Shown piece after piece: positions 3,898-9,090 of a DNA stretch of 20,423 nt. The notes below the pieces were generated by a model. It saw only the letters and a list, made by a program, of their open reading frames with translations, was not told the origin of the DNA and made no database searches. The DNA lies in the IMG/VR virus record IMGVR_UViG_3300022926_000156, positions 1-20,423 of that record. One strand, written 5' to 3'. The translations under genes and the position numbers were made by a program. Source of the DNA: a virus. Within the stretch, counting starts at the first letter, position 1; every line of letters begins with the position of its first letter.

Positions 3898-4017
3898 ATG
3901 AGAGAATTTAATCACTGGTCAGAACATATCAAAGAAAACAAACGTAAGGATAAATTAGATACTGTAATATTTTTCTTACTTATATTTGCAGGAGTATTAG
4001 TCACATGGATAATCTAA
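3898..4017 (+). CDS. Small single-pass membrane protein
   Basis: 39 residues starting MREFNHWSEHIKENKRKDK, a charged N-terminal half, followed by a membrane helix (VIFFLLIFAGVLVTWII) that runs to the C-terminus. It starts with ATG at 3898, two bases after the preceding stop, with TTAGGAG upstream at 3882-3890. It overlaps the next gene's start (4005). It is expected to be a tail-anchored inner-membrane peptide. Such small membrane proteins are usual in phage early operons; the role is unknown. Confidence 0.65.
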   Translation: MREFNHWSEHIKENKRKDKLDTVIFFLLIFAGVLVTWII

Positions 4018-4496
4018 TTAATACAATTCAAGACATAACAGATGATTTGCGTGCAGACAATGACGCAGCTCTAGCAGAATTACAACAAGAGGAAGAACAA
4101 CAGATGAAAGAAAATAAAGTTAAAACTGTTACACCTAAGCTGAATAGCATAAAAATTGGCAAAAGTAATAAAGAGTATGTAGAAGTTCATGAGCGAATTA
4201 GAGGATTTAGAGAAATGTATCCTAATGGCTCTATTATGACTGAAATATTAACTCATCAAGATGGCGTAGTTGTATTTAAAGCAGTTGTTGTAGTTGATGG
4301 TCAAATTGTAGCAACTGGTCATGCGTATGAAAAAGAAGGAAGTTCATTTATAAATAAAACAAGTTATATTGAAAATGCAGAAACATCAGCAGTTGGTCGT
4401 GCATTAGGCATTTTAGGTATTGGTATAGATACATCAGTGGCTAGTGTAGAAGAAGTAGCCAATGCTATTAAACAACAAGGTGGAGACCCATTCTAA
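4005..4496 (+). CDS. Single-strand annealing-like recombination protein
   Basis: 163 residues. An acidic Gln/Glu-rich leader (about 1-35) precedes a compact domain: YVEVHERIRGFREMYPNGSI, paired strands (VVVFKAVVVVDGQIVATGHAY), then SYIENAETSAVGRALGILGIG. The last block, with 'E-x-AETSAVGRALG', recurs in phage annealase-like proteins of the ERF/Rad52-like group encoded next to YqaJ exonucleases. With the exonuclease one base downstream (TAATG overlap) it would form a Red-like pair that resects and anneals DNA ends. It is shorter than classical ERF proteins, so the exact family is uncertain. It sits behind GGAG (3990-3994) and overlaps the upstream small membrane gene. Confidence 0.6.
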   Translation: MDNLINTIQDITDDLRADNDAALAELQQEEEQQMKENKVKTVTPKLNSIKIGKSNKEYVEVHERIRGFREMYPNGSIMTEILTHQDGVVVFKAVVVVDGQIVATGHAYEKEGSSFINKTSYIENAETSAVGRALGILGIGIDTSVASVEEVANAIKQQGGDPF

Positions 4497-5110
4497 TGGA
4501 ACAACGCACAGACGAATGGTTTAAAGCACGTTTAGGTAAGGTTACTGCAAGTAAAGTATCTGACGTGCTTGCCAAAATAAAATCAGGGGAAGCTGCTGTT
4601 CGTAGAAATTACAAGATGCAGTTAGCTACAGAACGATTAACTAATCAGAAAACAGATACCTATATCAACCAAGCTATGCAAGATGGTATTGATAGAGAAG
4701 ATACAGCTCGTGAAATATACGAGATTGTTCGTGATATAAAAGTAGAACAGGTCGGCTTTATAGACCACCCTACAATTAAAATGGCAGGTGCTAGTCCTGA
4801 TGGATTATTACCTGACAATGGTGTGCTTGAGATTAAATGTCCAATCGAAACCACCCATACAACTAATTTGTTAGAACGTAAGTTGCCTAGTCGATATATA
4901 AGCCAGGTGCAGTGGCAGATTGCTTGCACAGGCGCAGAGTATGCTAACTTCGTTTCTTACAATCCAAACTTTGAGCCTAAACTACAACTCATGTTTATCG
5001 AAGTAGAACGTGATAATGAGTATATAGAAATGCTTGAAGAAGAAGTGTCTACCTTTTTATTAGAGGTAGATGAAGTCGTTAAAACATTAAGAGAATTAAA
5101 TAAGGAATAA
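4496..5110 (+). CDS. YqaJ/lambda-exonuclease-type recombination nuclease
   Basis: 204 residues. The N-terminus QRTDEWFKARLGKVTASK is the hallmark of the YqaJ family (E7, R12, G14, T17-A-S-K). The catalytic PD-(D/E)XK core is GASPDGLL (D102) and VLEIKCP (E112, K114), followed by YISQVQWQI (Q137, Q141), the trailing Gln motif. It is expected to be an ATP-independent 5'-3' exonuclease that produces single-stranded overhangs for the annealase upstream. Length is normal for the family and no motif is missing. Confidence 0.88.
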   Translation: MEQRTDEWFKARLGKVTASKVSDVLAKIKSGEAAVRRNYKMQLATERLTNQKTDTYINQAMQDGIDREDTAREIYEIVRDIKVEQVGFIDHPTIKMAGASPDGLLPDNGVLEIKCPIETTHTTNLLERKLPSRYISQVQWQIACTGAEYANFVSYNPNFEPKLQLMFIEVERDNEYIEMLEEEVSTFLLEVDEVVKTLRELNKE

Positions 5111-5113
5111 TAT

Positions 5114-5407
5114 ATGGCACAAAATCCACAATATCCAAACAGTATCGCAATCTTTAAACAAGATGATACTAGTAACAACAAACCACAATATACTGGCACT
5201 ATTACGCTATCTAATGAAATATTAGCTGACCTAAAGAAGTATGATGTATTAGAGTTAGATGTATCTCTGTGGGTTAATGAAAGTAAGAAAGGTACTAAAT
5301 ATCAAGGAGGTTCTATTGATATACCTTACAAAGTTAGACAAGGTGATGCTGCTCCTAAACAAGCACCAGCTCCGGCTTTAGAGGGTGAAGATGACATCCC
5401 CTGGTAA
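5114..5407 (+). CDS. Putative ssDNA-binding accessory protein with SSB-like acidic tail
   Basis: 97 residues. The body (about 7-75) looks beta-rich: SIAIFKQDD, YTGTITLSNEIL, LELDVSLWVNESKKGTKYQGGSIDIPYK. It is followed by a Pro/Ala linker (APKQAPAPALEG) and the terminus GEDDIPW. Bacterial SSB proteins end in DDDIPF, the peptide that docks SSB partners. A compact beta domain, disordered linker and DDIP-aromatic tip is the SSB architecture. The protein sits directly after the annealase/exonuclease pair, where phage SSBs are often found. The body is shorter than a typical OB-fold SSB, so I call the role likely but not certain. Confidence 0.55.
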   Translation: MAQNPQYPNSIAIFKQDDTSNNKPQYTGTITLSNEILADLKKYDVLELDVSLWVNESKKGTKYQGGSIDIPYKVRQGDAAPKQAPAPALEGEDDIPW

Positions 5408-5573
5408 ATTTATTTATCGATATGTTCCACAAGAAAATCTAAAGTATTTGCCTAGCAATGCTGTTCCTTTAGGTGGAGTAAGAGGAAGGAAAGGTATTGT
5501 TAGAGTTAGATTTGATTATGATTGGGTAAAGCGGTCTAATAATAAAATGAAGGTGTTATTCAGGGGGATGTAA
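5391..5573 (+). CDS. Small basic protein, unknown function
   Basis: 60 residues, strongly basic (GGVRGRKGIVRVRFDYDW, RSNNKMKVLFRGM). ATG at 5391 is chosen over GTG at 5385 because GAGG lies 6 bases upstream. It overlaps the preceding gene by 17 bases. It is probably a beta-rich nucleic-acid-binding peptide judging by charge (inference). Its stop codon lies in the loop of the hairpin at 5563-5580. Confidence 0.55.
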   Translation: MTSPGKFIYRYVPQENLKYLPSNAVPLGGVRGRKGIVRVRFDYDWVKRSNNKMKVLFRGM

Positions 5574-5580
5574 GTCCCCC
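5563..5580. terminator. GC hairpin between convergent genes
   Basis: GGGGGA-TGTAAG-TCCCCC forms a 6-base-pair stem with a 6-base loop, very GC-rich against an AT-rich background. It lies where the rightward operon ends and 15 bases past the pqqA stop on the other strand, so it could close both transcripts. No clear T-run follows on either strand, so it may instead be an mRNA-stabilising hairpin. A 10-base imperfect direct repeat (ATGAATTAGT/ATGAATTACT) follows at 5581-5600. Confidence 0.5.
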
Positions 5581-5595
5581 ATGAATTAGTATGAA

Positions 5596-5667
5596 TTACT
5601 TATTGCATACATACATTGTTACTTCAAAGCCGAAGCGCATTTCTGTTGCTGATGGTGTTGTCCACAT
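5596..5667 (-). CDS. pqqA: PqqA, pyrroloquinoline quinone precursor peptide
   Basis: A 23-residue peptide: MWTTPSATEMR, then FGFEVTMY, then VCNK. PqqA is the ribosomally made substrate for PQQ. The radical-SAM enzyme PqqE, with chaperone PqqD, joins Glu and Tyr of the E-x3-Y motif, here E15 and Y19; proteases and PqqB/PqqC finish the cofactor. The N-terminal MWT-P, the RFGFEVTMY core and the N-K ending match the 23-residue betaproteobacterial type, and the length is exactly normal. ATG at 5667 has AAGGAG 7 bases upstream, and a TATAAT box lies at 5704-5699. It stands alone on the minus strand between two plus-strand gene groups, and no pqqB-E is in the window, so it must depend on host enzymes. 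A methylotroph host using PQQ-dependent methanol dehydrogenase is inferred. Confidence 0.92.
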   Translation of the reverse strand: MWTTPSATEMRFGFEVTMYVCNK

Positions 5668-5698
5668 AGCCAATCTCCTTTCTTCTAGATTTAATGTA

Positions 5699-5704
5699 AT
5701 TATA
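5699..5704 (-). promoter_or_regulatory. -10 box of the pqqA promoter
   Basis: A perfect TATAAT on the minus strand, giving a leader of about 25 bases before the pqqA ATG at 5667. No good -35 hexamer is present at 16-18 bases; TTGTCT occurs only at a 20-base spacing. The promoter may therefore be activator-dependent. Confidence 0.5.
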
Positions 5705-5706
5705 CT

Positions 5707-5726
5707 CTGTATTGCAAGTATTACAG
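5707..5726. promoter_or_regulatory. Near-palindrome upstream of pqqA
   Basis: CTGTA-N10-TACAG, an inverted repeat with 5-base arms lying in the region between the pqqA -10 and its expected -35, and also just upstream of the rightward gene at 5745. It could be an operator for one or both divergent genes. Function is inferred from position only. Confidence 0.3.
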
Positions 5727-5744
5727 ACAAGGTAGGATTAGTTT

Positions 5745-5972
5745 ATGGTAAGTAAAATCTTGAGTTATTTTGTGCTAGTAATTATGATATTGTTAATTAT
5801 TGGTATAGTATTACAGTATTATGTGTCTCTACCACAAGAGCCACAAAAGTTAGTCTGCCATAAAGGTAGATTATTGGCACAGGTTGAAGGTGAAGGAACT
5901 GTTTATACACGCATCAAAAAGTTCTCCTGTGAATATGATAAAAATATGTTAATTATAGAGGAACAATTATGA
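5745..5972 (+). CDS. Small membrane-anchored protein
   Basis: 75 residues. A strongly hydrophobic N-terminal helix (ILSYFVLVIMILLIIGIVLQYYV, about 5-27) is followed by a polar domain with two cysteines (LVCHKGRLLAQVEGEG, KKFSCEYDK). It is probably anchored in the inner membrane with the C-terminal part outside, where the cysteines could pair. Phages often carry short 'CHKG-x-L' proteins of this form, with no known role. ATG at 5745 has AGGA 7 bases upstream. It overlaps the next gene by 4 bases. Confidence 0.65.
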   Translation: MVSKILSYFVLVIMILLIIGIVLQYYVSLPQEPQKLVCHKGRLLAQVEGEGTVYTRIKKFSCEYDKNMLIIEEQL

Positions 5973-7429: not shown

Positions 7430-7617
7430 CAGTGAAATTCCAAATCCTTAGGTAAGGCAAAATATAAATTCATACTATCACCTGTGATAACAAATGACTC
7501 TTGGTTTGTGAATGTAATTTTTAATAAGGCTTCTGATTCGTCTTCAATAAACTCAATATTGTCGACTGTTTGGTTCTTAAAAGAATTAAGAAATTCTAGG
7601 GAATCGTTTTGTTCCAT
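7429..7617 (-). CDS. Small hypothetical acidic protein
   Basis: 62 residues. It has an acidic helix (SLEFLNSFKNQTVDNIEFIED), then strands ALLKITFTNQESFVITGDS and a final LYFALPKDLEFH. ATG at 7617 lies inside the end of the metallophosphoesterase gene (22-base overlap). The 'L-x-I-x-F-T-x-x-x-S-F-x-I-x-G-D-S' two-strand pattern is typical of small phage proteins with no assigned role. Confidence 0.6.
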   Translation of the reverse strand: MEQNDSLEFLNSFKNQTVDNIEFIEDESEALLKITFTNQESFVITGDSMNLYFALPKDLEFH

Positions 7618-8297
7618 CGACCATCCTTATCTAAGACCATAGGCATTAATTTAGGCTGTCCATTAATAATCATGCCACATCCTACTATGAAGCGTGATTT
7701 AAAGTTCTTAGCATAGTCAAATGCCATAGACTTCTGATTAATTAAACAACCGACTTGCATACCCCAAATAAGTGCTTCAGGGTTACTAAAATAACCTATA
7801 CTAAACTTTGTATGGAAGTGACCTTGAACTGTATTCATCCCATACTGGGCTGCAACTTTTAAAACATCGGCGGAAATTCCATGCGTAAAGAAACAACGGC
7901 TACCATCTGATAGCGTAATCGTTAAATCATCTACCCATTTCCAACCATTACCAACGCCTAAAAACTCGTTGTAGGACTTTAAATAGTCCTTAGGAAGCCC
8001 ATATTTTAATGCTCGTCTATATACTAAAGATGAGTGATTGGAATGTACTAGGGTCATCCTAGGAAATATCTTCTCTAGTTCTCTTACATAGACTCTAGAG
8101 TTCTTAAGCTCATCACCAGCTGACATTAAATCAGGATTGTGTTCGTGCATAGAGATGGCGTGATGGTCTAACTCATCTCCAATGTTTACAATCATGTCAG
8201 GCTTATATTTCTTTTTTAATGCTTTTAGAAAGTCAAACGCATCTTGATGGTGATATGGTATATGTAAGTCAGAGATGACTAATACTGAATTATTCAT
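7596..8297 (-). CDS. Calcineurin-like metallophosphoesterase
   Basis: 233 residues. All core ligands of the binuclear metal site are present in order: SDLH (D10, H12), NIGDELD (D41), SNHSS (N87, H88), FTHG (H139) and GHFH (H160, H162). It should cleave phosphomono- or diesters; in phages such enzymes may act on nucleotides, nucleic acid ends or signalling molecules, but the substrate cannot be told here. The ATG is at 8297, two bases after the stop of the endolysin gene. Position at the end of the late operon, after lysis genes, is common for accessory enzymes. Confidence 0.85.
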   Translation of the reverse strand: MNNSVLVISDLHIPYHHQDAFDFLKALKKKYKPDMIVNIGDELDHHAISMHEHNPDLMSAGDELKNSRVYVRELEKIFPRMTLVHSNHSSLVYRRALKYGLPKDYLKSYNEFLGVGNGWKWVDDLTITLSDGSRCFFTHGISADVLKVAAQYGMNTVQGHFHTKFSIGYFSNPEALIWGMQVGCLINQKSMAFDYAKNFKSRFIVGCGMIINGQPKLMPMVLDKDGRWNKTIP

Positions 8298-8299
8298 AA

Positions 8300-8728
8300 T
8301 TAACTAAAAAGTCTTGTACCTTTTTTATCTATTATTAACGCTTCCTTGCGTGGTTTATCAGGATGAAAAGATAAATGTACCCATCTGTCATATTCTAATA
8401 TAACTTGGTCATAGTTAATATCTGCATCAACTATAGCACTAACAATACTGCGAGGGTTACCATAACTAGGACTAATGAAGTCAACCGCCAAACCTTTCGT
8501 GTGGCTAGAAGTTCGCTTGCTTCCCAAAAAATCATTAAGAGCATGACAACGGAAACCACTATTAATAAGCATAGGATGAGATAATAAAGTTCGTACATTT
8601 TCTAATTCTTTCGCTAAAAAAGTTAAGTTATCTATAATTTCAACTGTAGGTGTATTGTCTATATTTAGACGAGCAGCTGTATTAGAATGAGTGAGTTCTT
8701 CTAAACTAAAATGTGGAGATAGTTTCAT
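8300..8728 (-). CDS. Endolysin, M15 peptidase family
   Basis: 142 residues. HFSLEELTHS at the start, SGFRCHALND, SHTKGLAVDF (H76, D83) and RWVHLSF (H118) form the zinc-binding H-x6-D...H set of M15A peptidases. These cut peptide cross-links in peptidoglycan. There is no signal peptide, so release to the cell wall would need a holin, and two holin-like proteins are encoded immediately upstream (8725-9428). ATG at 8728 overlaps the preceding gene by 4 bases. This is a single-domain lysin of normal size. Confidence 0.88.
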   Translation of the reverse strand: MKLSPHFSLEELTHSNTAARLNIDNTPTVEIIDNLTFLAKELENVRTLLSHPMLINSGFRCHALNDFLGSKRTSSHTKGLAVDFISPSYGNPRSIVSAIVDADINYDQVILEYDRWVHLSFHPDKPRKEALIIDKKGTRLFS

Positions 8729-9090
8729 TTCTTCCTCGCTGATTCAAACAATCCTCCGCCAAAATAAAAACCAACAATTGCTAACATAATTTCACCTAGC
8801 CACATTTCATTAGCAAATGCCTTAGCTTCATTAACGTTATTCATATCTATAATACCATATAATGCGCCAAGAACACCGTTTAGCATGATAAATACAAAGA
8901 CTCCAGAAAACATAATAGCAAGGTATCGCTGTGCTAATTTAAATGGTGCATAAGCTGCTAACAATGCAATCTTTGCATCATTCTTTGCTTTTATTTCTTC
9001 TTCTGTAGAGGTGTGCATATCATCAATAAGTTCTAAACCTTTTTTAATCACATCACCACTACCTAGTATCTTTGCTAATATACCTATCAT
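8725..9090 (-). CDS. Holin-like membrane protein (GTA-holin/3TM type)
   Basis: 121 residues. An N-terminal amphipathic helix (LGSGDVIKKGLELIDDMHTS) and a Lys/Ala-rich coil lead to two strong membrane segments, about 56-80 (YLAIMFSGVFVFIMLNGVLGALYGII) and about 97-115 (EIMLAIVGFYFGGGLFESA), ending in RKK. This matches the layout of the 3TM holin family found in gene transfer agents and marine phages. It should form the membrane lesion that releases the endolysin. ATG at 9090 overlaps the upstream gene by 4 bases. Confidence 0.65.
   Translation of the reverse strand: MIGILAKILGSGDVIKKGLELIDDMHTSTEEEIKAKNDAKIALLAAYAPFKLAQRYLAIMFSGVFVFIMLNGVLGALYGIIDMNNVNEAKAFANEMWLGEIMLAIVGFYFGGGLFESARKK

Follow-up and report, generated by a model that had tools for sequence, protein, structure and literature searches.

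The stretch of DNA analysed here (the window, 20,423 nt) is a phage contig that encodes PqqA, the PQQ precursor peptide. The gene, pqqA, occupies positions 5596..5667 on the minus strand and has 23 codons and a stop codon that translate to MWTTPSATEMRFGFEVTMYVCNK, in agreement with the frame and coordinates of the original prediction. PqqA is the substrate that becomes PQQ, the cofactor of methanol dehydrogenases. The following features lie in and around the gene:

5611..5625, minus strand: codons of E15-V-T-M-Y19, whose Glu and Tyr are the residues joined by PqqE in characterised PqqA peptides (from sequence)
5675..5680, minus strand: Shine-Dalgarno sequence AAGGAG, 7 nt before the ATG of pqqA (from sequence)
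5668..5697, minus strand: 5' leader ACATTAAATCTAGAAGAAAGGAGATTGGCT, partly common to other phage pqqA leaders and to some host standalone pqqA leaders
5699..5704, minus strand: TATAAT hexamer, a possible -10 element, with no -35 at canonical spacing (from sequence)
5558..5586, minus strand: hairpin, a possible terminator lacking a U-tract (fold z-score -3.35)
4005..5407, plus strand: recombination genes beside pqqA, namely an ERF-like gene (by position, as in MEP301), a YqaJ exonuclease gene (PF09588) and a gene for a 97-aa protein
7596..9090, minus strand: neighbouring phage genes for a metallophosphoesterase, an M15 endolysin and a 121-aa frame (holin by position, as in MEP301)

The peptide matches Pfam family PF08042 (PqqA) with an E-value of 1.4e-10 and 41.3 bits over the full length of the model (1-19/19), and the NCBIfam equivalog TIGR02107 with an E-value of 2.2e-11 and 43.3 bits, likewise at full length. 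These scores are about twice the curated cut-offs of 21.1 bits for PF08042 and 20 bits for TIGR02107, and membership in the PqqA family, for which a profile search had been proposed as the check, rests on full-length matches above both. The same profile scan found a single PqqA in the whole 20.4-kb record and no PqqA match in 14 control genomes. The peptide layout described beforehand ('MWT-P start', 'RFGFEVTMY core') is correct by sequence, as is the placement of E15 and Y19 at the positions linked by PqqE; the E-x-x-x-Y motif, whose Glu and Tyr give rise to PQQ, is therefore present. A search of the PDB found no sequence match to the peptide. We confirm that the phage PqqA at 5596-5667 on the minus strand is real and correctly identified.

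The predicted AAGGAG ribosome binding site was found at 5680-5675, and a similar Shine-Dalgarno site precedes 109 of the 118 viral pqqA copies listed. The resemblance of the leader to other phage leaders and to some host pqqA leaders suggests that the gene and its ribosome binding site may have been captured together. The TATAAT box that had been reported is present as a hexamer, but a promoter role is not established for it, since no -35 element lies at normal spacing and a sigma-70 promoter scan predicted no promoter for pqqA and gave the hexamer no score. Two features are additional to those first described. The stable hairpin 3' of pqqA (-16 kcal/mol for the folded 56 nt) is situated in the gap toward the convergent neighbouring gene, and an antisense frame of 54 aa (5591-5755, plus strand) overlaps pqqA. 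Searching the window against Rfam gave no match to a known RNA.

Phage genes flank pqqA on both sides. MEP301, Venkman and ctXG6705 have a recombination neighbourhood similar to that at 4005..5407 next to their pqqA. On the metallophosphoesterase side of the gene in the window, there are also tail or virion genes. A second contig, 99.9% identical over 9.4 kb, carries the same pqqA. The gene is present in complete cultured phage genomes as well, and host contamination as its source was rejected on that ground. MEP301, a Methylophilales phage, has the nearest metallophosphoesterase (81.8% aa identity), and the M15 endolysin finds its closest counterparts in Venkman, P19250A and MEP301; because of these affinities, we infer that the host of the 20.4-kb contig is probably a Methylophilales bacterium. 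The methylotroph host originally proposed is in keeping with this, as the cultured phages with pqqA infect Methylophilales and the present contig is assigned through its relatives. The tail region of the window also contains a gene for a 2OG-Fe(II) oxygenase (PF13640; 19262-19837, minus strand), a type that has been reported in MEP401-like metagenomic phages (PMC10580990).

A tblastn search with the phage PqqA peptide against 50,697 phage records located pqqA in P19250A (peptide 91% identical to that of the window), Venkman, MEP301, MEP401, MEP402 and four Melnitz isolates. These carriers constitute 9/9 of the Methylophilales phage records that any search turned up in the collection, a set that leaves out MEP431-434, HIM624-A and Venkman EXVC038S, which appear in the taxonomy and for which no record turned up there. 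The only other credible match was the spring-water podovirus ctXG6705, whose host is unassigned. A match labelled Acinetobacter phage MD-2021a (CAKLQF020000010.1) was rejected as a phage pqqA; the stretch is bacterial DNA with pqqABCD and ppk, and the record is probably mislabelled. None of the ten phage records (nine Methylophilales phages and ctXG6705) annotates the gene as pqqA. It falls in an unannotated gap in five of them, and the annotation of Melnitz and ctXG6705 places a hypothetical protein across it on the opposite strand. The oversight is probably due to the length of the gene, as 72 nt escapes gene callers.

The gene is almost the only DNA common to MEP401 and otherwise unrelated Methylophilales phages, and it is among the few stretches shared by the window and five Methylophilales phages. 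IMG/VR was scanned using two degenerate DNA patterns, which together returned at least 157 contigs. Several of these have terminase-like, capsid-like or other virion-like frames around pqqA, as judged by eye, and a profile search identified the major capsid protein gp23 in three T4-like records, including Melnitz. Other PqqA types are encoded by some phage-like contigs, as with MKWETPSFEDLRFGFEVTMYINASN, which adjoins a terminase-like frame; this suggests that pqqA is also carried by phages that infect further PQQ-using bacteria. Further contigs with other PqqA types, such as one in which ribose-phosphate pyrophosphokinase-like and lipase-like frames adjoin the gene, were set aside as probably misclassified cellular DNA and have no bearing on the Methylophilales set.

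Conservation in related phages had been named as a test of the prediction, and the frame proved to be maintained by purifying selection, both in related phages and in unrelated ones. The second IMG/VR pattern constrained only the N-terminal half of the gene, leaving E15, Y19 and codons 12-23 free; E15 and Y19 were both intact in 120 of the 120 viral copies among the matches listed for it. Codons 12-23, compared over 107 distinct sequences, gave a pS of 0.64, a pN of 0.041 and a dN/dS of 0.029, and whole-gene dN/dS was 0.07. Changes outside E15 and Y19 in the viral copies are conservative. The low dN/dS and the intact reactive residues indicate that the frame is a translated and maintained PqqA, and thus a homolog of a host metabolic gene that is under selection in phages (dN/dS ~0.03-0.07).

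The enzymes that act on the precursor were sought in the same genomes. PqqB, PqqC and PqqE were not found near pqqA among the 120 viral loci listed, and PqqE did not exceed its cut-off in any of 40 records, seven of which are complete phage genomes; PQQ dehydrogenase was likewise absent from those seven. The carriage of the precursor alone, as first predicted, is borne out by the lack of PqqE in the complete genomes tested. No phage with a complete PQQ pathway (pqqB-E) was found, the window contig being partial. By likeness to its complete relatives, the phage from which this 20.4-kb fragment derives would be expected to lack pqqB-E elsewhere. A PQQ methanol dehydrogenase occurs in 1 of the 40 records, a 72-kb phage contig (IMGVR_UViG_3300025120_009955) that also encodes a phage-type ribonucleotide reductase, a head maturation protease and GroEL. 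Between 30000 and 47000 on this contig, the methanol dehydrogenase (TIGR03075, 608 bits), a formate dehydrogenase alpha subunit (TIGR01591, 885 bits), a quinoprotein-dehydrogenase-associated SoxYZ carrier (TIGR04557) and a thioredoxin-like protein are encoded around pqqA. This C1-oxidation cassette adjoins curli-like genes.

The genomes of Methylophilaceae and other methylotrophs hold 2-12 pqqA copies each, with 12 in Methylophilales bacterium LSUCC0135 (2.1 Mb) and 2-7 in the other nine methylotroph genomes, and most copies have no PqqB, PqqC or PqqE nearby. One methylotrophic PQQ producer is reported to have five pqqA genes, three of them at separate genomic sites, and expression of pqqA1 and pqqA3 clearly exceeds that of the other copies (PMC9851590). 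Since hosts themselves keep pqqA mostly away from the enzymes, a precursor supplied alone can plausibly work. OM43-type genomes have a tandem pqqA pair about 200 bp apart, with VCNR/K and VMNK endings. Exact matches between phage pqqA and the host copies sampled reach 24 nt at most, with free divergence at synonymous sites. A nucleotide tree built on 69-89 bases shows 7-8 changes between host and virus labels, although it carries too little signal and its host sample was restricted to VCN tails; for these reasons, we do not claim a number of captures.

We consider it quite probable that this is a functional phage pqqA acting as an auxiliary metabolic gene (AMG), which would supply the consumed PQQ precursor while the host PqqB-E perform the chemistry. 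The profile matches, the conservation of the gene and the Methylophilales-infecting carriers support this reading, which the original prediction had also favored. The phage would make the 23-residue precursor, host PqqD and PqqE would crosslink Glu15 and Tyr19, and host peptidases together with PqqB and PqqC would complete PQQ. PQQ synthesis would use up PqqA one-for-one, whereas the enzymes are catalytic and would persist, so that a phage may need to replace only the substrate gene. In a phage that stops or dilutes host transcription, the replaced gene could keep PQQ-dependent methanol dehydrogenase, and with it energy supply, going until lysis. The analysis establishes the family identity, phage context and conservation of the gene, its intact reactive residues and the lack of PqqE in complete relatives; we infer expression during infection, processing by the host enzymes and a benefit to the phage. 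Because the hosts already have several pqqA genes, an added phage copy may be redundant.

The same peptide could instead act against the host. PqqA binds PqqD and PqqE ahead of the reaction, and a phage copy that occupied them would lower host PQQ and either slow methanol oxidation or shut down host metabolism; the common phage tail, VMNK, does differ from the usual host VCNR/K. A decoy or inhibitor of this kind should tolerate or even favor loss of Glu15 or Tyr19, yet both are kept in every unconstrained copy listed, and the changes elsewhere are conservative. Some OM43-type hosts also have the VMNK tail on their second tandem pqqA, and one phage contig pairs pqqA with methanol dehydrogenase. 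With Glu and Tyr invariant, we regard inhibition as unlikely. A benefit directed at other phages seems less likely still: PQQ arising from infection might shield the phage that produces it against competitors, for instance if it occupied the TonB-dependent PQQ receptor PqqU needed for entry, and PQQ does block infection by an E. coli phage that enters via PqqU (PMC12124388). Nothing found ties the present phages to PqqU, however; their common factor is a PQQ-dependent host, and methanol dehydrogenase accompanies pqqA both in one phage contig and in the Baikal virus population VP_266.

The remaining explanations deny the peptide a role. A lone host-like gene that is one of the few sequences common to unrelated phages might be the remnant of an attachment site, with the phage bringing along a piece of a host gene that keeps this gene intact upon integration. 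Here, though, the gene is whole, with its own start, stop and ribosome binding site, and in other phages it lies among structural genes. No phage integrase was found in the seven complete relatives, and the divergence from sampled host copies (exact matches of at most 24 nt, with synonymous sites freely diverged) likewise disfavors such an origin, which we consider highly improbable. We give equally little credence to a recently captured passenger without benefit. The gene is very small and cheap, and its leader resembles some host leaders; nevertheless, the strong purifying selection over 107 distinct copies contradicts this idea, and pqqA is present in all cultured Methylophilales phage lineages examined.

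Phage pqqA as such is already known. The original prediction had left priority undecided, and it must be corrected in that the gene was reported once, when Coutinho et al. (2020) described pqqA and methanol dehydrogenase in VP_266 (PMC7678222). The gene set of the 72-kb contig follows the same theme. The Baikal study also described P19250A as devoid of these AMGs (PMC7678222); for pqqA this is wrong. In a phosphate context, a 2026 survey of reservoir sediment counted pqqA, pqqD and pqqE as viral AMGs (PMC13188868). Within the open-licence literature, pqqA goes unmentioned as a phage gene in the papers on Venkman, Melnitz, MEP301 and MEP401/402, and reports elsewhere are possible. What is new is its generality, its precursor-only form and its overlooked status. 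It is likely that nearly all phages infecting PQQ-dependent methylotrophs are characterised by a precursor-only pqqA, which unrelated podo-, sipho- and myovirus lineages would have acquired on more than one occasion and which has been overlooked. If so, pqqA could mark methylotroph phages in metagenomes. Very small genes can cause AMG surveys to miss a shared gene, and one paper called such genes absent from a phage that bears pqqA. Methanol oxidation of the OM43/LD28 type is a link in the aquatic one-carbon cycle, and if the PQQ precursor is general among the phages of these bacteria, viruses may give methanol oxidation direct support during infection. Phage-host systems already exist for such work: Venkman or Melnitz with H5P1, MEP301 with FZCC2181 and MEP401 with FZCC0133.

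The phage peptide shares its sequence family (TIGR02107, PF08042) and Glu/Tyr positions with the PqqA of Klebsiella and Methylorubrum, whose genes, unlike phage pqqA, sit in bacterial operons with pqq enzyme genes. Phage pqqA also resembles the standalone pqqA of Methylophilaceae and Methylophaga (such as beta proteobacterium KB13, LSUCC0665 and LSUCC0135), which encodes 23 aa, is often away from pqqB-E and has a similar leader, with up to 62/69 bases identical. Those copies are chromosomal and mostly end in VCNR or VCNK, whereas phage copies mostly end in VMNK, a comparison for which host sampling required a VCN tail. VP_266 resembles the window phage in that a predicted Methylophilaceae phage encodes PqqA and is proposed to support methanol oxidation; however, it is T4-like and also has methanol dehydrogenase, while the window phage belongs to a different lineage with no dehydrogenase in its 20.4 kb, and the small complete relatives of the latter carry the precursor only. 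In cyanophages, psbA provides a fast-turnover component of a host energy pathway, and phage pqqA would similarly be a phage-supplied part of such a pathway. The psbA product, D1, is a protein subunit, whereas PqqA is a RiPP precursor consumed for a cofactor, and to replace nothing but the substrate peptide that a cofactor pathway uses up would be an unusually economical strategy.
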